Below are positions 12,383 to 28,070 of a DNA stretch of 64,000 nt, piece by piece. Position 1 is the first letter of the stretch. Each line of letters opens with the position of its first letter. This DNA is from an uncultured Opitutia bacterium. Lineage in GTDB: Bacteria; Verrucomicrobiota; Verrucomicrobiia; Opitutales; UBA953. The notes below the pieces were generated by a model. The model searched no databases, had not been told where the DNA came from, and saw only the letters and a program-made list of their open reading frames with translations. The stretch spans positions 558,001-622,000 of the forward strand of contig CAIMFJ010000005.1 of assembly GCA_903840355.1 (NCBI GenBank), read 5' to 3'. Both the position numbers and the translations under genes were made by a program.

Positions 12383-15300
12383 ATGATCCTGCGTGGTCCC
12401 CAGCGTCCCGATTTACTGTGCGACGAAACTCTTGCCGATATTTTAAGGGCTACCGCCGCCGACTGCCCCACGCAAATCGCCTTGGAATGGCACGACCAAC
12501 GCTGGTCTTATACGCAACTTCTTCAAGAAGCCCAACACCTCGCCCAGGGACTGCATGCTCAGGGGGCCCAAGTCGACGGCGTAGTAGGCCTCTGGTTACC
12601 CCGTGGAGCAGATTTATTAATCAGCCAAGCCGCGATCACGTTAAGCGGGGCGGCTTGGTTGCCATTTGATGCCGACACTCCGATTGAGCGCGTCCAGCTT
12701 TGCCTGAATTCCGCTCGAGCCCAAGGTATCCTAACCAATCGTGAACGGGCACAGGCTTTACAAAAGCTCGGTCTAACCGCATGGGCGATTGAAGATTTAA
12801 AAGCGCTGCCACGAAGCAACCTGCCCTTGCCAGCGGCTCAGCCAAATTCTCCTGCTTACGTGATTTATACTTCGGGCTCCACGGGACAGCCCAAAGGCAT
12901 CGTCATCAGTCACCGCAATATCTGCCACTTGCTCCGCAGTGAAAACGCCGTCCTCGGCGTGCAGCGAACGGACCGCGTCTACCAAGGCTTCTCGGTCGCG
13001 TTCGACATGTCGTTCGAAGAAATTTGGATTAGTTATTTAGTGGGAGCGACCCTGTGGATTGCACCGCCCACCATTGTGAGTGACCCCGAAGCGCTGACCC
13101 AACAAATCAAACAGCAAAAACTTTCGGTGGTGCATGCGGTGCCGACGTTGATGGCCCTCATCGATGATCCCCTACCAGGGGTCCGTATAATTAATCTCGG
13201 TGGCGAAGCTTGCCCCGAAGCCTTAGTGGGACGTTTAGTGCGCCCGGGTCGCCTCTTGTTTAATTCTTATGGACCGACGGAAACGTCGGTCACCGCAACC
13301 CTCACCGCCCTGCAAGTCGGCGAAGCGGTTTCCATTGGACTGCCACTTCCCAACTACGGCGTGATGGTCGTAGACGACCAACAGCGCTTAGTGCCGGATG
13401 GTGAGATAGGCGAACTCGCGGTCTTTGGCCCGGGCCTAGCCACGGGATACCTCGGCTTGCCTGAACTCACCGCCAGTAAGTTTTTGCCGAATCCCCACGC
13501 GGCTTCACCCGAGGAAGCCCGCATCTACCTCACGGGCGACTTAGCCAAAATCGTCCCCGGCGGACCCGTTTATTGCCTCGGGCGAGTGGATGACCAAGTG
13601 AAGATCCGTGGCTTCCGAGTCGAACTCGGAGAGATTGAAGCTCGCTTAGCTCAAGAACCTGGAGTCGGTGCGGTCGCCGTCGTGCTACGCAAGATTGCTG
13701 AAGTCGATCAACTCATCGCTTTCTTAGTCCCCGCGGCTGGACAAACTCTGCAAGTTGCCGCGCTCCGCCAAGCCCTCAGCCTAACATTACCAAGCTACAT
13801 GGTGCCGGCTGTATTTGAGGTTTTACCTGAATTACCTCGACTGCCTTCCGGTAAAATCGACCGCAAAAAACTCCAGCCCTCCGCCCAAAGTTTAACGCAA
13901 GTTGCCGCCTCGAGCGAACCGCGCAATGAGGATGAAGTCGCCCTCTGGGCCGCCTTACAACGCATCGTACCTGGTCAATCACTGCGCCCTGAAGCGGATT
14001 TCTTTACCGACTTAGGTGGACATTCCCTCTTAGCCGCTCGCCTCGTCTCACTCCTCCGCCAACAACCTGCTTATGCGAATTTAAGCGTCGGCGACCTTTA
14101 CCGTGAACGCACTTTAGAGAAATTTTCGGCCATTCTTCGGCAACGACGCACCCATCTTCAGCAAAAGAAAAAGTCCGTCCGACTGCCCGTAAACCGTTGG
14201 CGCCATTTCTGGTGCGGCCTAGCGCAAGCCTGCTGCTTGCCCTTCATTGTACTCTGGCACATGGCTTCTTGGCTCGCCCCTTTCTTTACTTACCATTTCA
14301 ACACTGGGGAACCTGGCGATAGCATTCCCGTAGCGGTCGCTTGGTCGCTAACAGTTTTCATCCTCGTCGAGATTCTTTCCTTCATCATTGCCATTCTCGG
14401 CAAGCGCTTACTCGTCGGAAATTTAAAACCCGGACGGTATCCACTTTGGGGCGGAACTTATTTCCGATTTTGGCTTTCTGAAAAACTTTCGACGCTCGCC
14501 CCGATCCGACTCTTTCACGGCACGCCGTGGTTAAATCTCTACCTCCGCTTACTCGGAGCCAAAATCGGCCGCCATGTTTTCATTGATAACATCATTGTCG
14601 CGGTCCCGGAATTACTGACCATTGAAGAGGGTGCGGACTTAGGCTCCGCCGTCATTATCTCCAACGCTCGAGTCTCACAGGGCTATTTAATCGTCGGCCC
14701 AGTTCGCATCGACCAAGGTGCCTTGGTTGAATCCAATACCGTGCTCGAAAATCATACGTGCGTAGGCGCCAAAGCACGCCTAGAGGCCATGTCCTGCCTC
14801 GCAGAAGGCGTGCAAATTCCAGCTGGGGAAACATGGGCTGGTGCGCCAGCCCGTGCTACGTCGCGACTCACCGAAGTTCTTCCTCCGCGACCAACTAGTT
14901 CCTTCGTCCGTCAAATTTGGCTCTACACATTCTTTGCCCTAGGCGGCTTTGGGATCGCTTGCTTATTCTTCCTGCCTGTTTTCCCGGTCTTCATGCTCAT
15001 CGATGCCCTCGATGCGCATTATTTTGATATCTTTGAAGAAGATGTCGGCTCCTTCTTCAGTTTTGGTTTCTTCTTCCTGCTATCTATCCCTGCCAGCGCG
15101 CTATTGGTACTCCTAACGACCACGCTAACGGGGCTGCTCCGGAAAATCTTACTGCCGACCCAAGTTGTTGGACGCTGGCCCATTCAGAGCGGCGCCTACT
15201 TACGCAAATGGCTGATCACCCGTATTCTTGATGCGAGTTTAGAAACCCTCCACGGACTCTACGCCTCCGTTTTCGCTGCGACTTGGCTCCGACTCATGGG

Positions 15301-16336
15301 AGCCAAAGTGGGACGGCATACCGAAGTTTCCACCGCCACAGGAGTTATTCCTGATTTACTCACTTTAGGTCACGACTCCTTTGTCGCCGACGGGGTGATG
15401 CTGGGCGATGAAGAGCAACGCGGAGGCTGGATGACCCTGAAACCTACCGTAATCGGCAACCGCTCTTTCTTGGGCAATGGTGCTTACGTTCCCGATGGTA
15501 GCGTTGTACCCGATGACATGCTCATCGGCGTCCAAACGCGCACGCCGCCCAATGAAGCCATGAAACCTGGCCAAGTCTGGATGGGCTCGCCTGCCCTACT
15601 CCTGCCCGCCCGCGAAGGGGACTTGGGCTTCAACGCGAGCTTAACGTTTCGTCCGAGCAAATTACGGTGGCTCAGCCGCGCTTTCGTCGAAACCCTGCGC
15701 ATTGTGCTCCCGATGTCCTTCGTTATCGCCACCGGTTATTTAATTGTACAAGAGACCATCCCCTACGCCGAAGAAGAACAGTGGGGCATGATGACCCTTG
15801 CCCTCGCCTTAGCAGGCTGTCTCTACGGCATCTCTTCCTTCTTACTAGTCGTTGCCCTCAAATGGTTGTGTATCGGCAAATACATCCCAACGGCACGTCC
15901 CATGTGGTCGCCGTTCGTCTGGATCAGCGAAGCCGTAACCAACGTCTATGAATCCCTCGCGGTGCCTAACTTCCTCGATTTCTTACGTGGCACGCCGCTC
16001 CTGCCTTGGGCTTTAAAACTCTTGGGCGTGAAAGTCGGTCAGCGCACCTTCCTTGATACGACTGACATGACCGAATTCGATTGTGTGACTATTGGTGACG
16101 ACTGTGAGCTCAACTACTCCTGCGGCCCTCAAACGCACTTGTTTGAAGATCGCGTGATGAAAATCGGCCATGTCATCATCGGCCATCGCGTCAGCGTCGG
16201 AGCGGCCTCAACCATTCTTTATAATACAGAAATCGGAGACGATGTCCAATTAGGCTCCCTCACGCTCGTCGCCAAAGGTGAACGCCTGCCAGCCCAGACC
16301 GCCTGGGAAGGATCGCCGGCGGCCCCCGTGGCATGA
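12383..16336 (+). CDS. Pls/PosA-type single-module NRPS with membrane-embedded C-terminal domains
   Basis: A 1317-aa protein. The adenylation domain (about 10-500) has the A3 loop Y-T-S-G-S-T-G-Q-P-K-G (162-172), Y-G-P-T-E-T, and the A10 lysine K491 in P-S-G-K-I-D-R. A carrier domain follows, with D-L-G-G-H-S and phosphopantetheine Ser548. After it come six hydrophobic segments in three pairs, each followed by a left-handed beta-helix (hexapeptide) domain (about 720-830, 975-1080, 1220-1317). This A-T-(2TM-soluble)x3 layout is that of epsilon-poly-lysine synthetase and the TIGR02353 terminal domain. By analogy it may polymerise one amino acid at the membrane. Manual alignment places acidic E212 at the pocket position that often favours basic amino acids (inference). 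It overlaps the next gene by ATGA. Confidence 0.92.
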   Translation: MILRGPQRPDLLCDETLADILRATAADCPTQIALEWHDQRWSYTQLLQEAQHLAQGLHAQGAQVDGVVGLWLPRGADLLISQAAITLSGAAWLPFDADTPIERVQLCLNSARAQGILTNRERAQALQKLGLTAWAIEDLKALPRSNLPLPAAQPNSPAYVIYTSGSTGQPKGIVISHRNICHLLRSENAVLGVQRTDRVYQGFSVAFDMSFEEIWISYLVGATLWIAPPTIVSDPEALTQQIKQQKLSVVHAVPTLMALIDDPLPGVRIINLGGEACPEALVGRLVRPGRLLFNSYGPTETSVTATLTALQVGEAVSIGLPLPNYGVMVVDDQQRLVPDGEIGELAVFGPGLATGYLGLPELTASKFLPNPHAASPEEARIYLTGDLAKIVPGGPVYCLGRVDDQVKIRGFRVELGEIEARLAQEPGVGAVAVVLRKIAEVDQLIAFLVPAAGQTLQVAALRQALSLTLPSYMVPAVFEVLPELPRLPSGKIDRKKLQPSAQSLTQVAASSEPRNEDEVALWAALQRIVPGQSLRPEADFFTDLGGHSLLAARLVSLLRQQPAYANLSVGDLYRERTLEKFSAILRQRRTHLQQKKKSVRLPVNRWRHFWCGLAQACCLPFIVLWHMASWLAPFFTYHFNTGEPGDSIPVAVAWSLTVFILVEILSFIIAILGKRLLVGNLKPGRYPLWGGTYFRFWLSEKLSTLAPIRLFHGTPWLNLYLRLLGAKIGRHVFIDNIIVAVPELLTIEEGADLGSAVIISNARVSQGYLIVGPVRIDQGALVESNTVLENHTCVGAKARLEAMSCLAEGVQIPAGETWAGAPARATSRLTEVLPPRPTSSFVRQIWLYTFFALGGFGIACLFFLPVFPVFMLIDALDAHYFDIFEEDVGSFFSFGFFFLLSIPASALLVLLTTTLTGLLRKILLPTQVVGRWPIQSGAYLRKWLITRILDASLETLHGLYASVFAATWLRLMGAKVGRHTEVSTATGVIPDLLTLGHDSFVADGVMLGDEEQRGGWMTLKPTVIGNRSFLGNGAYVPDGSVVPDDMLIGVQTRTPPNEAMKPGQVWMGSPALLLPAREGDLGFNASLTFRPSKLRWLSRAFVETLRIVLPMSFVIATGYLIVQETIPYAEEEQWGMMTLALALAGCLYGISSFLLVVALKWLCIGKYIPTARPMWSPFVWISEAVTNVYESLAVPNFLDFLRGTPLLPWALKLLGVKVGQRTFLDTTDMTEFDCVTIGDDCELNYSCGPQTHLFEDRVMKIGHVIIGHRVSVGAASTILYNTEIGDDVQLGSLTLVAKGERLPAQTAWEGSPAAPVA

Positions 16337-16875
16337 CCCGTAAAGACCCGCCGCTGCTTGTCGCCACCTGGCCCGCCCAAGTGCCCCGTCCCTGCGAGGT
16401 GCCGTGCGTGATTCAACTCCACCATTCTGGACCGAAAACTGCCCAAAGGGCCTCTATTAGAAAAGTTCTGCAAGAGGTTTTACAATCGTGGGACTGCACC
16501 CTCCCCTGGAAAGAAACACCCCAAGGACCGATACACCCGCAATATACCATCAGTGTTTCTTACACCGCGACAAGTGTTTGGCTTGCACTGCATACTAGCT
16601 CTAAACTGGGAATCGATGCGGTCGTCACCGCGAATTTCCCAGAATTAATCAGCGTGAGTCAAACTTACCTCGGACCTAGCGCGACGCAAAGTATTTTGAG
16701 CCACACTCACCCTGCAAAAGCATTCGCACGGGAGTGGACCGTCTTAGAAAGCAACCTCAAAGCCCACCGACAAGGGCTAAGCGAATTCCCGGCACAACTA
16801 CCTCAACTAGAGCACACCGTGTCATGGGATACCACCGAGGGTATCGCCATCACGGTGTGCTGGTCGCAGCAGTAA
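16333..16875 (+). CDS. candidate diverged 4'-phosphopantetheinyl transferase
   Basis: A 180-aa cytoplasmic protein translationally coupled to the NRPS gene (ATGA overlap at 16333-16336). The segment I-S-V-S-Y (73-77), L-G-I-D (92-95) and the helix W-T-V-L-E-S-N-L-K-A (135-144) follow the order and spacing of Sfp-type transferases (S-x-S-H, G-I-D-x-E, W-T-x-K-E-x-x-x-K-A). D95, E139 and K143 match metal- or CoA-binding positions. The second acidic residue of G-I-D-x-E is Val, and the Lys of W-T-x-K-E is Leu. The likely job is to attach phosphopantetheine to Ser548 of the NRPS. The family call is my inference from motifs and context. Confidence 0.6.
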   Translation: MTRKDPPLLVATWPAQVPRPCEVPCVIQLHHSGPKTAQRASIRKVLQEVLQSWDCTLPWKETPQGPIHPQYTISVSYTATSVWLALHTSSKLGIDAVVTANFPELISVSQTYLGPSATQSILSHTHPAKAFAREWTVLESNLKAHRQGLSEFPAQLPQLEHTVSWDTTEGIAITVCWSQQ

Positions 16876-20453: not shown

Positions 20454-23400
20454 ATGAATCCCTCCCGGTTATTCATCCTTCGCCCAGTGGCGACGACCCT
20501 CTTCATGGTGGCCATCCTTCTGGGTGGCATCATCGCCTACCGGAGTCTACCCGTTTCCTCCCTGCCCGAGGTAGACTACCCAACCATCCAGGTCGTGACG
20601 CTCTACCCAGGAGGTGGCCCCGAGGTGATGTCGTCCTCCATCACCGCGCCTCTGGAACGGCAATTTGGTCAAATGCCAGGGCTGAAACAGATGTCCTCCA
20701 CCAGTTCAGGAGGCGCTTCGGTAATCATCCTGCAGTTCAACCTCGCCCTGAGTCTTGATGTAGCCGAACAACAAGTACAGGCGGCCATCAATGCCGCCTC
20801 ATCGTTACTGCCGACAGACCTACCCTCTCCTCCGATCTACAGTAAAGTCAACCCCGCCGAGACTCCCGTTGTCACCTTGGCAGTCTCTTCCAAAACGTTG
20901 CCGCTGACTAAGGTTGAGGACTTAGCTGACATCCGTTTAGCCCAAAAGATTTCCCAACTCCCTGGGGTGGGCCTCGTGAGTCTTTCAGGTGGACAGCGCC
21001 CTGCCATCCGTGTCCAAGTGAACGCGCGCCAGTTAGCGGCCAAGGGACTTAATTTAGACGACATTCGCACGGTCATTGGGAGTGCGAACGTTAATTTAGC
21101 GAAAGGCAGCTTCGATGGCCCCGCCCGCGCCTCGACTCTAGATGCCAATGACCAACTGTCGTCCGCGGATGATTACCGTAACCTCATCATCGCCTACCGC
21201 AACGGAGCCCCAATCAAACTCCGCGATGTCGCCGATATTATTGATGGTCCCGAAAATATTCGTCTGGGCGCTTGGGCTAATCACGACCCAGCTATTATCC
21301 TTAATATTCAACGTCAACCCGGAGCGAATGTCATCGAGGTAGTAGACAGCATTAAAAAGTTACTTCCCCGACTTTCTTCCAGTTTACCCAATTCCGTCGA
21401 AGTTAAATTACTTACCGATCGTACCACCACGATTCGCGGTTCGGTCCATGACGTACAATTCGAACTCATGCTGTCCATTGCCTTGGTGGTGATGGTCATC
21501 TTCCTCTTCCTGCGCAGTATCCCCGCAACCATAATCCCGAGCTTAGCAGTCCCGCTCTCAATTGTGGGCACCTTCGTGGTAATGCAGTTCGCAGGCTTCT
21601 CGTTAAACAATCTTTCGTTAATGGCACTCACCATCGCCACGGGCTTTGTCGTGGATGATGCGATTGTGATGATTGAAAACATCTCGCGTTACATCGAAGA
21701 AGGCGAGACTCCCATGGAAGCCGCCCTCAAAGGCTCCAAACAGATTGGTTTCACGATTATCTCCTTAACGTTTTCGCTCATTGCGGTGCTGATTCCTCTT
21801 TTAGTGATGGGCGACGTCGTCGGTCGCCTCTTCCGCGAGTTCGCGATTACCCTCGCCGTCTCCATCCTAATTTCAGCCTTAATCTCGCTTACCTTCACTC
21901 CGATGTTATGCGCACGTCTGCTGCGCCACACCCCGGAAAACGAACAAGGATGGTTCTATCAAACAAGTGGAGCTTGGTTTGATAAAATCATTCACCTTTA
22001 CGACCGAGCTCTGACCTGGGTTCTCAACCGGCAGCGGGCTACTCTTGTCGTCGCCATTGGGACTCTTCTGGCAACCGTCCTCATCTACCTTGCTATCCCC
22101 AAAGGTTTCTTCCCCTCGCAAGACACCGGCTTGATTCAAGTTATCACCGAATCAGCTCAATCGGCCTCATACCAAAAAATGGCTGAGGTACAGCAGCAGC
22201 TATCCGAAGTCTTCCTCGAAGATCCAGCCGTTGAAAGCATTTCCTCCTTCATCGGTGTCGATGGCGTTAACACCACGCTCAATACCGGCCGGATGCTTAT
22301 CAACCTCAAGCCGCACGGCTCACGTCCCAACGCCGCGACCATCATCACCCGACTGCAAACGGCGAGCAATAAAGTCGTGGGTATCCACGCCTACCTTCAA
22401 CCGGTCCAAGACTTGACCATCGAAGACCGCGTCAGCCGCACTCAATTCCAGTTCACCGTCGAAGACGCCAACCAAGCCGAATTATCCACCCTCGTACCAC
22501 GCCTGCTGGATCGACTCCATCATGTCCCTGAGTTGAGCGAAGTTGCTTCCGACTTCCAAGAAGACGGTCTTAAAGCCTACGTTCGAATCAATCGCGACAC
22601 CGCCGCTCGCCTCGGCGTTTCCATCGCTGCCATTGATAGTGCCCTTTACAATGCCTTTGGCCAAAGACTCGTCTCCACTATCTTCACCCAAACGAATCAA
22701 TACCGCGTGGTCCTTGAGGCTAAGCCGCTTGCTCGAAAACAATTCTCCTCTGGCCCCGAAGCCCTCAACGACGTTTTTGTGCTGTCTTCCAGTGGTCAAC
22801 AAATTCCGCTTAATACCATCGCTGAAGTAGAGGAACATACGGGGGCTCTCGCCGTGATGCACCAAGGGCAATTCCCCTGCGTGACGGTTTCCTTTAACCT
22901 CGGACCCAAAACTTCACTGGGTGAAGCCGTAAGTGCCATCTACAAAGCGGAAAAAGATTTAAACCTACCGCCAAGTTTTGTGACGCGTATGCAAGGCGCC
23001 GCTCAAGCCTATGGAGCCTCGCTCAATAATACGCTCATGCTCATTCTCGCCGCGATTGTGACGATGTATATCGTGCTCGGCGTTTTATATGAAAGTTTTA
23101 TTCACCCGGTGACCATTCTCTCGACCCTTCCCTCGGCTGGGGTGGGAGCACTACTGGCCTTGTGGATTTCCGACAATGACCTTGGAGTCATCGCCGTCAT
23201 TGGCATCATCCTCCTCATCGGCATTGTAAAAAAGAATGCGATCATGATGATCGATTTCGCCCTCGAAGCCGAACGAGTTCACGGCAAGTCACCCCAAGAA
23301 GCGATTCACGAAGCGTGCTTACTCCGCCTCCGTCCCATTTTGATGACCACCATGGCCGCCTTACTGGGGGCTTTACCATTGATGATAGGGAGTGGCATGG

Positions 23401-23555
23401 GCTCGGAATTACGTCACCCCCTCGGTATCACGATGGTAGGAGGACTTATCTTTAGCCAAGTCCTGACACTCTTCACCACCCCAGTCATCTACTTAGCCTT
23501 CGATCGTTTGGTTCCTCGGAGCTCCACCCCCGAAGCGATTCATGAGTCTATCTAG
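20454..23555 (+). CDS. mdtB: RND multidrug efflux permease, MdtB type
   Basis: A 1033-aa inner-membrane permease of the HAE-1 RND family with 12 transmembrane segments and two large periplasmic loops. The N-terminus closely follows MdtB ([32 protein letters not shown]). TM4 has [13 protein letters not shown] with the proton-relay aspartates and TM10 has K-K-N-A-I-M-M-I-D. MdtB pairs with MdtC in a heteromeric proton-driven pump. Its end overlaps the MdtC-type gene by 14 bases, so the two are coupled. The leader is CCCCGCCCCTTTC with no Shine-Dalgarno sequence. Confidence 0.93.
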
Positions 23556-26500
23556 TCCATTCATTCGCCGGCCAGTCGCCACGACACTGCTCACCATCGC
23601 CGTGGCCTTCGCAGGCATTTTGGGCTTTAATCAACTCTCCGTTGCCCCCTTACCCCAAGTCGACTACCCGACCATCTCCATCTCGGCGTCCTTACCTGGT
23701 GCTAGCCCTGAAACGATGGCTGCTACGGTGGCCACGCCCCTAGAGCGAGCCCTCGGACGCATCGCTGGCGTCAGCGAAATGACTTCTTCGAGTTCGCTCG
23801 GTCAAACCAACATTTCCCTACAATTTGATTTGAGCCGCGACATCAACGGGGCGGCGAATGACGTACAAGCGGCGATTAACGCCGCCCAAAGTCTGATGCC
23901 TTCGGGCATGCCGCGGAATCCTACTTACCGCAAAGTCAATCCGGCTGACTCGCCCATCATGGTGCTCACCATGACGTCGGACACCATGACGCGCCCCCAA
24001 CTTTACGATGTGGCGGCGAGCATTCTTTCGCAAAAAATTTCCCAACTCGACGGCGTTGGTAACGTCAACATTGGTGGCAGCTCACTCCCTGCAGTCCGTA
24101 TCGAGTTAAACCCTTCCCGCATGAGTGACTACGGGATTGGATACGAAGACGTCCGGAGCATCATCGTCACCAATAACGTCAATCGTCCCAAGGGGCTTAT
24201 CGAATTCGGGGAACATAGTTGGCAGATCCAAGCCAACGACCAAGCGGTGCGGGCAGTTGATTATAAGCCACTCATTGTTTGTTACCGCAACGGCGCCCCG
24301 GTAATCCTCTCCGAAATCGCCGAAATTACCGATGGCTCCGAAGACATCCGGAATACTGGCATGGCGAGCGGTAAGCCGGCCGTGCTCCTCACGATTTTTC
24401 GTCAACCTGGTGCCAATATTATTGAAACAGTCGATAGCATTCACGCCATTCTCCCGCTGCTGCGGGCGTCTATCCCCGCTAATATCAACTTAGAAGTAGC
24501 CCTCGATCGAACGCCGACAATTCGCGCCTCCCTCCACGAAGTGGAAAAATCGTTAATCGTTTCCATCATCTTAGTGGTCATGGTGGTATTCCTCTTCCTC
24601 GGAAATCTCCGCGCAACCCTCATTCCCAGTATCGCCGTCCCGATTTCACTGATTGGGACCTTTAGCATCATGTACCTGCTGGGGTACTCTTTAAACAACA
24701 TCTCTTTGATGGCTCTCACCGTCGCCACGGGCTTCGTGGTCGATGATGCGATTGTAGTGCTGGAAGCCATTTCTCGTCGTATTGAAGAAGGCGTTAAACC
24801 CTTCCAAGCCGCCCTCGATGGTGCCGCCGAAGTAGGTTTCACGGTCGTCTCCATCACCGTCTCTTTAGTGGCTGTCTTCATCCCACTCCTCCTCATGGGT
24901 GGCATCATTGGACGTCTCTTCCGCGAGTTTGCGGTCACGCTCTCCGTGGCGATTACCGTTTCCTTACTCATTTCGCTCACGACAACGCCCATGTTGTGCG
25001 CCCTGCTCCTTAAGCCCGCCCAAGAACATCAGTCCAACCGCTTTACGGTTTTTGTTACGAACATTTTTAACGGCATCACTCGTCTCTACGAATCCAGCCT
25101 ACGCTTTGCCCTGCAACATCGACTCGCCACGATGGTGGTTCTGTTGCTCACGATTTGCCTCAACGTCTACCTCTACATCCTCGTTCCAAAGGGTTTCTTT
25201 CCACAGCAAGACAACGGCCGCATTGTGGCCAATATCATGATGGATCAGTCCTCCTCTTTTCACTCGTTGGAGGAAAAGATGACGGTCTTTAGCAATGTGC
25301 TGCGCGAAGACGAAGCGGTGGAAAATGTGGTGGGCTTTGGTGGTGGCAGTGGGGGCCGCGGGGGCTCAATGATGTTCGTCACGCTGAAACCTCTAAAGGA
25401 GCGCAAGATTTCCATCGATGAAGTGGTGGCTCGACTGCGTAAACGACTCAACCAAGTCGCTGGAGCCTCCCTCTTCCTCATGCCCGTACAAGACGTCCGC
25501 ATCGGCGGTCGCGGAAGTAACGCCCAGTTCCAATTTACGTTAATGGCCGACCGCATGGAAGATCTGCGCGAATGGGAATCCAAAATTCGGATTGCGATGA
25601 CGAACCTGCCTGAGCTCGCCGACGTAAACGGTGACACGCAAGACAAAGGCATTGAAACCTATTTAACCATCGATCGAGATGCCGTGGCTCGCTTGGGATT
25701 AACCATGAAAGCCGTCGACGCCTCGCTAGGCGATGCGTTTGGCCAAGCCCAAGTGTCTACCATCTACAACCCACTCAATCAATACCACGTCGTCCTCGGA
25801 GTCAGCGAACGCTACACGCAGAGTTCAGAATCCTTAAAGAACATCTACGTCTCGGCTCCTAACCCCCAAAATCCTAAGGCCAACATCCAGGTCCCTTTAG
25901 CGGCGATTGCCAAATACAAGACCAGCAACACCCCTCTCTCGGTTAACCACCAAGGGCAATACGCTGCCTCCACCATTTCTTTTAATTTACTACCTGGCGA
26001 ACCCCTCAGCGATGCAACGGACGCCATTGAAGAAATGATGGCTAACCTCAAAGTGCCCAACACGGTGCATGGAAGTTTTCAAGGGACGGCTAAAGTCTTC
26101 CAAGACTCACTGGCGAGTCAGCCTTGGCTAATTGCCGCCGCCCTGTTTACCGTCTACATCGTTCTAGGCATTCTTTACGAGAGTACGATTCACCCCATCA
26201 CCATTCTTTCGACCCTGCCGTCCGCTGGCATCGGCGCCATTGTCGCCCTCATGCTCTGCAATACCGAACTAAGTATCATCGCGATGATCGGCATTATCTT
26301 ACTCATCGGTATCGTGAAGAAGAACGCCATCATGATGATTGACTACGCCATCCATGCACGGCGCCAAGACGGACTCAGTGCCGAAGAAGCAATCTTCAAG
26401 GCAAGCATCCTGCGCTTCCGTCCCATCATGATGACCACCATGGCCGCCATCCTCGGAGCCGTCCCGCTCGCTATCGGTGCGGGCGATGGTGCGGAACTAC

Positions 26501-26619
26501 GCCGACCACTCGGCCTTGCTATCATTGGCGGCTTAATCTTCAGCCAAGTGCTCACCCTTTATACCACTCCGGTCGTCTACCTCTACATGGAACGCTTCTT
26601 TAAAAAATCTTCTGTATGA
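23542..26619 (+). CDS. mdtC: RND multidrug efflux permease, MdtC type
   Basis: A 1025-aa permease with the same 12-TM RND plan. The N-terminal [22 protein letters not shown] and [11 protein letters not shown] match MdtC rather than MdtB. Proton-relay residues are present in [13 protein letters not shown] and K-K-N-A-I-M-M-I-D. It forms the second subunit of the pump. It overlaps the MdtB-type gene (14 bases) and the outer-membrane factor gene (4 bases). A glycine-rich run ([11 protein letters not shown]) in the second periplasmic loop is longer than in the enterobacterial protein as I recall it. Confidence 0.93.
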
Positions 26620-28070
26620 AACTAACTTTACGCACCCTGCTCTGTGCTTCGCTCCTCACGGCTTGCACCCTCGGGCCTGATTACCAACGCCCGAGCACCC
26701 CGACGGCAGAAAGCTTTCAAATTCCCGCGGGCTGGAAGCTCGCCCAACCCACTACCACAGTTTCGACCCAAGCTTGGTGGGAAGATTACCATGATTCCGT
26801 GCTGAACCGGCTGATGGAAAAGTTGAACGTTAATAATCAAAATATTGCCAATTTTACCGCCCAATACCGCCAAGCGGTCTCCCTCGTTCAAGGAGCTGAA
26901 GCTCTGCTCTTCCCCACGGTGAGTGCGAATGCAGCCGCGAGCCGTAGTTCGAGTCGCGTCATCAACGGACAATCCACCGGGACGCAAAACAACACGAGTG
27001 TAGGCCTCAATGCGAGTTGGGAACCAGATATCTGGGGATCCGTTAGTCGCGGCGTTGAATCTCAAGTCGCGGCCGCGCGTGCCAGTGAAGCTGCCTTGGC
27101 GGCGGCCCAACTTTCGGCCCGCGTCGCCCTCGCGCAAACTTACTTCCAACTTCGTATCACGGATATTCAACGGCAGATGTACGCTGAGACTCTAACCGCT
27201 TACAAGAAATCGTTGGACATCACCCGCAACCAATACAGTGCTGGCGTGGCTCGGCAATTAGACGTCGCCCAAGCGGAAACCTTACTTAAATCAACCGAAG
27301 CACTCGCCATTGATAATGAGGTAGCACGCGGACTACTCGAACACTCCATCGCCGTGCTCATTGGTGAGCCGGCCTCGAGTTTCCACCTAGAAGCTGAAAA
27401 ACTAACAAGCAATAGCGCCACAGGTTTAGTGGATAGTGCTACTTCAGAATTAGTTGAAAAGCTACCGGCCCTACCGGTCGGGATTCCCAGCAGTCTCTTA
27501 GAACGTCGTCCTGACGTCGCAGCGGCAGAGTTTACGATGATAGCTGCCAATGCCAATATTGGCGTCACGAAGGCTGCCTTCTTCCCTTCTTTGACTATCG
27601 CTGCCAGCGGGGGCTACCAAAACAGCGTCCTGCCTGGGCTGTTCGAAACCCCCAACCGCGTCTGGTCGGTTGGCCCAAGCCTTGCGCTTTCCCTTTTTGA
27701 CGGTGGAGCACGCAATGCAGCCGAACAAAAGGCCATCGCCGCCTATGATCAAACGGCTGCGAACTATCGCCAAACGATCCTCGTGGCCTTCCAAAACGTT
27801 GAGGATTCGTTAACGACGCTCAACTTACTCGAAAAGGAAACGGTGGCTCAAATCGCGGCGGTTAAATACTCCCATGACGCCGTGAATATGACGCTCAACC
27901 AATATAAAGCTGGATTGGTGAGCTACCTCAATGTGACCACCGCCCAAGCGACCGCCTTGGCCAACGAACGCACCCTCATGACACTCCTAAGCCGCCGCTT
28001 GGTTGCGCACACGGGCTTAGTCGCTGCCATGGGTGGTGGCTGGTCCACCGCGGCACTTAAGACGAAGTAA
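26616..28070 (+). CDS. NodT-family outer-membrane efflux lipoprotein
   Basis: A 484-aa TolC/NodT-type outer-membrane factor. The signal peptide ends in the lipobox L-T-A-C with Cys17 as the lipid anchor, followed by T-L-G-P-D-Y, the usual family start. Two long alpha-helical repeats (about 60-250 and 265-470) form the periplasmic tunnel; each half has the family motifs (S-W-E-P-D-I-W-G near 145, G-P-S-L-A-L-S-L-F-D-G-G near 350). It would complete the MdtBC-like pump to the outside. Its ATG overlaps the MdtC stop (ATGA). Its stop directly abuts the stop of the convergent adaptor gene. Confidence 0.92.
   Translation: MKLTLRTLLCASLLTACTLGPDYQRPSTPTAESFQIPAGWKLAQPTTTVSTQAWWEDYHDSVLNRLMEKLNVNNQNIANFTAQYRQAVSLVQGAEALLFPTVSANAAASRSSSRVINGQSTGTQNNTSVGLNASWEPDIWGSVSRGVESQVAAARASEAALAAAQLSARVALAQTYFQLRITDIQRQMYAETLTAYKKSLDITRNQYSAGVARQLDVAQAETLLKSTEALAIDNEVARGLLEHSIAVLIGEPASSFHLEAEKLTSNSATGLVDSATSELVEKLPALPVGIPSSLLERRPDVAAAEFTMIAANANIGVTKAAFFPSLTIAASGGYQNSVLPGLFETPNRVWSVGPSLALSLFDGGARNAAEQKAIAAYDQTAANYRQTILVAFQNVEDSLTTLNLLEKETVAQIAAVKYSHDAVNMTLNQYKAGLVSYLNVTTAQATALANERTLMTLLSRRLVAHTGLVAAMGGGWSTAALKTK

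Follow-up and report, generated by a model that had tools for sequence, protein, structure and literature searches.

A PosA-group synthetase gene overlapped by a gene for a diverged phosphopantetheinyl transferase in an uncultured verrucomicrobium: a predicted two-gene cassette for a cationic homopolymer

The stretch of DNA analysed here (the window, 64,000 nucleotides from an uncultured Opitutia bacterium) carries two co-directional genes on the + strand, at 12383-16336 and 16333-16875. They share the four bases ATGA, so that the second gene starts inside the stop codon of the first, as a sequence-only reading of the window had noted. The features of the pair are as follows:

12383..16336, + strand: pls/posA-like gene, 1317 aa, in which an adenylation domain and a carrier are followed by three units of a membrane helix pair and a left-handed beta-helix domain, A-T-(TM2-LbH)x3; TIGR02353 match of 683 bits
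12446..13876, + strand: adenylation domain (residues ~22-498), with the code residues D208, M209, E212, H251, N271, G273, S295, V303, T304 and K491; 485 bits to the PosA crystal chain 8g95
13946..14131, + strand: carrier (thiolation) domain, residues 522-583, with the phosphopantetheine Ser548 in LGGHS (14024-14026)
14195..14416, + strand: membrane helix pair 1 (residues ~605-678), from the AlphaFold2 model
14561..14866, + strand: first left-handed beta-helix domain (C1), from the AlphaFold2 model
14903..15151, + strand: membrane helix pair 2 (residues ~841-923), from the AlphaFold2 model
15302..15604, + strand: second left-handed beta-helix domain (C2), with the invariant D1003 and N1032
15659..15871, + strand: membrane helix pair 3 (residues ~1093-1163), from the AlphaFold2 model
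16031..16309, + strand: third left-handed beta-helix domain (C3), where the majority of the invariant polar residues lie (E1231, Q1250, H1252, E1255, Y1280, K1298)
16333..16875, + strand: gene for a diverged Sfp-type 4'-phosphopantetheinyl transferase (PPTase), 180 aa, sharing ATGA with pls; D95, W135, E139 and K143 correspond to Sfp D107, W147, E151 and K155

On the 5' side, a DUF7133/cytochrome c gene diverges from the cassette across ~110 bases; on the 3' side, a convergent DUF1501 gene ends 3 bases past the PPTase stop. No partners for export, immunity or precursor supply are evident beside the two genes in the neighbourhood of the cassette, and scans for promoters and terminators performed no better than on shuffled sequences. 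The cassette may thus be "self-contained", as it was called in the sequence-only reading. Two genes away, at 20454-28070 of the window, genes for a pair of AcrB-type RND transporters stand in a row with one for an outer-membrane efflux protein; no tie between this efflux set and the cassette was found.

The C-terminal part of the synthetase (residues 614-1313) matches the NCBIfam model TIGR02353, "Pls/PosA family non-ribosomal peptide synthetase", over 694 of its 695 positions with 683 bits (E 4.4e-205), the curated cut-off being 423.1 bits. It is preceded by a single AMP-binding domain (residues 22-357, with a C-terminal subdomain at 417-491) and a single PP-binding domain; the core motifs of adenylation and the carrier serine are intact, and the position of Ser548 is occupied by serine in all 51 family members compared. 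No thioesterase domain was found in the synthetase, and condensation domains are absent both from it and from the whole genome. In an AlphaFold2 model of the C-terminal 720 residues, built on 29 family members (pLDDT 91, pTM 0.90), six long helices form three pairs, each followed by a left-handed beta-helix. Sequence search yielded no solved structure of the whole C-terminal domain; the closest solved folds to the beta-helix domains (Foldseek, VIA) are hexapeptide acyltransferases, namely serine, galactoside, maltose and xenobiotic acetyltransferases, with Z of 14-16 over 97-147 residues. Thus the family model, the domain search and the structure prediction agree with the layout initially read by eye: one adenylation domain, one carrier, six membrane segments with three hexapeptide-repeat domains, and no normal condensation or thioesterase domain. 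Two findings that could have spoken against that reading, an inactive adenylation domain and C-terminal domains outside the family, did not materialize, insofar as activity can be judged from intact motifs. A third, that the cassette is part of a larger NRPS cluster, is ruled out by the lack of condensation domains genome-wide together with the ordinary neighbours.

The closest known system is PosA of Acinetobacter baumannii (PDB 8G95-8G98), a proven delta-poly-L-ornithine synthetase (PMC10522769), which has the same domain order, the same length and all of the membrane and beta-helix parts; the C-terminal layout in the window likewise agrees with the published PosA model of six membrane helices in pairs plus three domains (PMC10522769). 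The two proteins are 51% identical over 100% of the length, the adenylation core aligns without gaps to the PosA crystal sequence, and the synthetase groups with PosA in a clade of 21 rows (100 SH-aLRT) that also takes in proteins of Pseudomonas gingeri, Comamonas, Polaromonas and others. Within this clade, the synthetase gene of P. gingeri (L056), Comamonas testosteroni (L082) and Polaromonas (L065) is followed immediately by one for a PPTase of the same family; in these PPTases the SxSH motif has its canonical His, which is Tyr in the PPTase of the window, and the synthetase codes read TVS where that of the window reads SVT. To our knowledge, none of these three systems has been characterized. 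A more distant relative, the epsilon-poly-L-lysine synthetase Pls of Streptomyces albulus (adenylation domain, PDB 7WEW), shares the architecture and the family model, but has Ala where the window has Met in the code, and falls on a separate branch in the published tree. The S. albulus gene likewise shares 4 bp with the gene next to it, although there the neighbour encodes a degrading protease, pldII, and not a PPTase (PMC4361855).

The pocket code obtained by alignment, DMEHNGSVTK, reproduces the one initially read by hand. That of A. baumannii PosA is DMEHNGTVSK, both as published (PMC10522769) and in our alignment of a copy from a plasmid-collection record, so that 8 of 10 residues are the same, and the remaining two, both with a hydroxyl, are simply exchanged (S for T and T for S). 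In PosA, the two substrate amines are held by D217 and E221, with T304 and S313 in contact with the delta amine; M218 restricts lysine, the use of which rises nearly 10-fold in the M218A mutant; lysine-specific family members have Ala at this position (PMC10522769). The residues of the window keep all of these roles, with Thr and Ser swapped and Met209 matching M218. Since the code differs from that of PosA by only two Ser/Thr exchanges, and in view of the 51% identity and the common clade, L-ornithine is the best substrate prediction. The earlier suggestion that a basic amino acid would be favoured was, accordingly, right in direction and is here sharpened to a predicted L-ornithine.

As for the second gene, the sequence-only reading had taken its product for a diverged phosphopantetheinyl transferase. 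The Pfam ACPS model matches this protein with 21.8 bits, under the cut-off of 25, as it does in most members of the genus (the homologues from two genomes, G002 and G070, score above it), and a phmmer search of the PDB with the single sequence gave no match. However, a model built from six homologues (pLDDT 89, pTM 0.86) retrieved only phosphopantetheinyl transferases among its 34 best Foldseek matches, headed by Sfp with CoA and carrier protein (VIA alignment to Sfp 4mrt: Z 13.4, 154 residues, rmsd 2.8), and the six-homologue profile matches human AASDHPPT (E 3.8e-9) and Sfp (E 6.8e-6). The fold and profile searches rule out that the weak Pfam match is spurious and confirm the gene as one for a short, diverged PPTase with the Sfp-type fold and a predicted activity. 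The protein has 180 aa, as compared to ~225-320 in Sfp and AASDHPPT, with which it shares the fold over ~155 residues as well as Asp, Trp, Glu and Lys in the active-site motifs. All 16 homologues agree at the four positions equivalent to Sfp D107, W147, E151 and K155. Within the motif (V/I)G(I/V)D...(F/W)(S/C/T)xKE...K, GID, W, E and K are retained and invariant, whereas the protein of the window has other residues in place of the third acidic one and of the K that precedes E. By comparison with Sfp and AASDHPPT, replacements affect the second acidic metal ligand, the Lys in WxxKE and the His in SH: the position of Sfp E109 is taken by V97 (Glu, Val, Thr, Met, Gln or Cys elsewhere), that of K150 by L138, and that of H90 is changed as well, the His of SxSH being Tyr in the Verrucomicrobiota members and His in the proteobacterial ones.

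The linkage of the two genes could be followed across the genus, where pls is present in 14 of 55 genomes, each representing a species. A PPTase of the same type lies directly downstream in all 14, overlapping in several; the most diverged of these PPTases (in G058) was matched by a profile made for the genus, not by Pfam. The 41 pls-free genomes have essentially AcpS only, a second PPTase match occurring in two of them, one of 12 bits and the other a fragment at a contig edge (32 bits, G069, C38:13-159), which may stem from contamination or from a disrupted second AcpS. The presence of the PPTase thus follows that of pls over the 55 genomes (Fisher p ~3e-11), and the pairwise identities of the PPTases and the Pls proteins are correlated as well (Spearman 0.77; 0 of 2000 permutations). 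In the genome of the window, which is 99% complete, the search for other stand-alone transferases that had been suggested as a check returned AcpS as the sole PPTase match besides the cassette gene. The possibility that the second gene is a chance reading frame or a mere frame overlap is ruled out by its retention in the 14 genomes and in other phyla.

One subclade of the genus has the pair next to the DUF1501 gene; in members of the second subclade, the neighbouring gene is amidase-like. In a pls-free member (G021, C13:15600-25000), DUF1501, a gap of ~1 kb, a redoxin and further genes of the window follow each other in the same order, the site being empty of the two cassette genes and of the DUF7133 gene. 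Because this genome shows the same flanking gene order without the cassette, the cassette is accessory and was probably gained or lost as a unit.

Taken together, these data make it likely, in our judgement, that the two genes form an operon whose product is a cationic homopolymer with isopeptide bonds, delta-poly-L-ornithine being the most likely one. An enzyme of the same type could instead polymerize another diamino acid (lysine, diaminobutyrate or a modified ornithine) owing to the exchanged pocket hydroxyls. Ser295 and Thr304 stand for the Thr and Ser of PosA, whose T304A and S313A mutants suffered 33- and 183-fold losses of efficiency (PMC10522769), and other members of the genus read TVT where the window reads SVT. 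However, the hydroxyl is preserved in both exchanges, the lysine-limiting Met is retained where lysine-specific members have Ala, and the whole protein lies within the PosA clade, so we regard a different diamino acid as unlikely, albeit the most plausible of the alternatives considered here.

Two further alternatives concern the PPTase. The identity of the 180-aa protein to its homologues is only 19-36% and the counterparts of Sfp E109 and K150 are missing, so that it may have become inactive or acquired another target. One could envisage a degenerate, inactive PPTase that now stabilizes or regulates the synthetase, the carrier being primed by AcpS; the changes at the positions of E109, K150 and H90 and the sub-threshold Pfam scores, in the window as in most of the genus, would fit such decay. 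Yet the four catalytic counterparts are invariant in 16 of 16 homologues, no genome of the genus with pls is without the gene, which goes along with pls even across phyla, and AcpS is generally known to prime NRPS carriers only rarely. Nor is the change at E109 by itself an argument against activity, because human AASDHPPT has, by profile alignment, the non-acidic Met at this position. We therefore consider degeneration improbable. Still less probable, and indeed hardly credible, is that the PPTase serves another carrier, such as a ketosynthase-linked ACP, with its position behind pls being incidental. The genome does contain a second carrier gene (C4:411256-411459), distinct from the fatty-acid ACP and adjoining a ketosynthase, and this carrier could be another target of the PPTase. 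Against an incidental position speak the co-occurrence of the PPTase with pls across 55 genomes, the adjacency in 14 of 14 cases with overlap in several, and the presence of the pair at different places in the chromosome as well as in other phyla.

Returning to the ornithine polymer as the preferred product, the action of the cassette can be envisaged in a scheme where the substrate, the product, the carrier-priming enzyme, the catalytic site in C3, export and the biological role are predicted, and which builds on the observed domain content, the PosA clade, the pocket residues, the fold and catalytic residues of the PPTase, and the linkage and co-occurrence of the two genes. The PPTase would move 4'-phosphopantetheine from CoA to Ser548 of the carrier; the adenylation domain would make L-ornithine adenylate and load the carrier; the membrane-anchored C-terminal part, a fused pseudo-trimer of hexapeptide-type beta-helix units, would extend the chain via the side-chain amine of ornithine; and the short polymer would exit at the membrane. 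Among 51 full-length members, the invariant polar residues of the polymerizing region gather in C3 (Q1250, H1252, E1255, Y1280 and K1298, with E1231 and E1300 nearly invariant), while C2 has the invariant D1003 and N1032 and the first domain mainly W689 and R695. By analogy with hexapeptide acyltransferases, the catalytic His may be carried by C3, and the conservation suggests H1252 and its neighbours as the candidate site of peptide-bond formation. The three Pls domains have reportedly been addressed in a mutational study by Kito et al. in 2013 (cited in PMC8949500); structure prediction alone has left the site of peptide-bond formation open (PMC10522769).

Beyond the genus, the Pls/PosA family is rare in the phylum (4 of 388 genomes drawn across Verrucomicrobiota), and TIGR02353 spans Pseudomonadota, Actinomycetota, Bacteroidota, Planctomycetota and Cyanobacteriota. 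We know of no product, expression or enzyme activity for any Verrucomicrobiota member. A PPTase of the same type follows the posA-like gene in P. gingeri, Comamonas, Polaromonas and another family of Verrucomicrobiota (G379), and does not in A. baumannii, Ottowia, Janthinobacterium and Xenophilus. In A. baumannii, posA is a single-gene operon that works without an adjacent PPTase (PMC10522769), in contrast to the window, where the PPTase gene overlaps the stop codon; hence the coupling is not essential to the family. Other PPTases occur within ~1 kb of pls in many Alphaproteobacteria, and, of 44 Pls/PosA loci from named genomes, at least 16 have a PPTase within this distance (18 were scored, from which we subtracted L051 as a coordinate coincidence and L074 as weak). 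These loci, along with the pairs annotated in Rhizobium, Sphingomonas and Aureimonas records, rule out a unique arrangement; the two-gene arrangement is a recurrent theme, visible in public annotation. Since genes for PPTases of another type lie just upstream of pls in a proteobacterial MAG (L052) and a Xanthobacteraceae MAG (L063), the pairing seems to have arisen more than once. In the open-licence literature we found no paper on such a system in Verrucomicrobiota or on the pairing of pls with PPTases.

The view that a two-gene system is unexpected in a verrucomicrobium should, then, be moderated, as the system is not surprising in kind: the type has been characterized in A. baumannii, it is present in 14 of 55 species of the genus, and pairs of the same type occur in Pseudomonas, Comamonas and Polaromonas. 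The cassette is a well-supported addition to the PosA group, accompanied by a diverged and probably dedicated PPTase, and not a new kind of system. More tentatively, and with some doubt on our part, the short PPTase might represent a distinct lineage that is specialized on, and co-evolves with, PosA-type carriers, with a modified metal and CoA site in which Tyr replaces His and both the second acidic residue and the Lys ahead of the catalytic Glu are missing. The pair would then be a transferable two-gene unit for polymer synthesis that has passed between Proteobacteria and Verrucomicrobiota.

A cationic ornithine polymer is thus predicted from an Opitutaceae-like genus of Verrucomicrobiota with small genomes, the genome of the window having no condensation-type NRPS, and the cassette is useful for product discovery; a synthetic 12-mer of the Acinetobacter product is antifungal in vitro (PMC10522769). 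The naturally paired, compact PPTase could serve to prime PosA-type synthetases. Two Pls-family proteins from elsewhere in the phylum have other codes. One (L040, from G189), placed near the Sphingomonas group in the tree, has the code DMETNGTITK, which is not among the codes noted from PMC10522769. The other (L042, from G336, of the same class), beside whose gene no PPTase was found, has the code DSECYGGVTK, which is identical to that of Bdellovibrionales, for which activation of L-arginine has been reported (PMC10522769); this protein is possibly an arginine-activating synthetase in Verrucomicrobiota.
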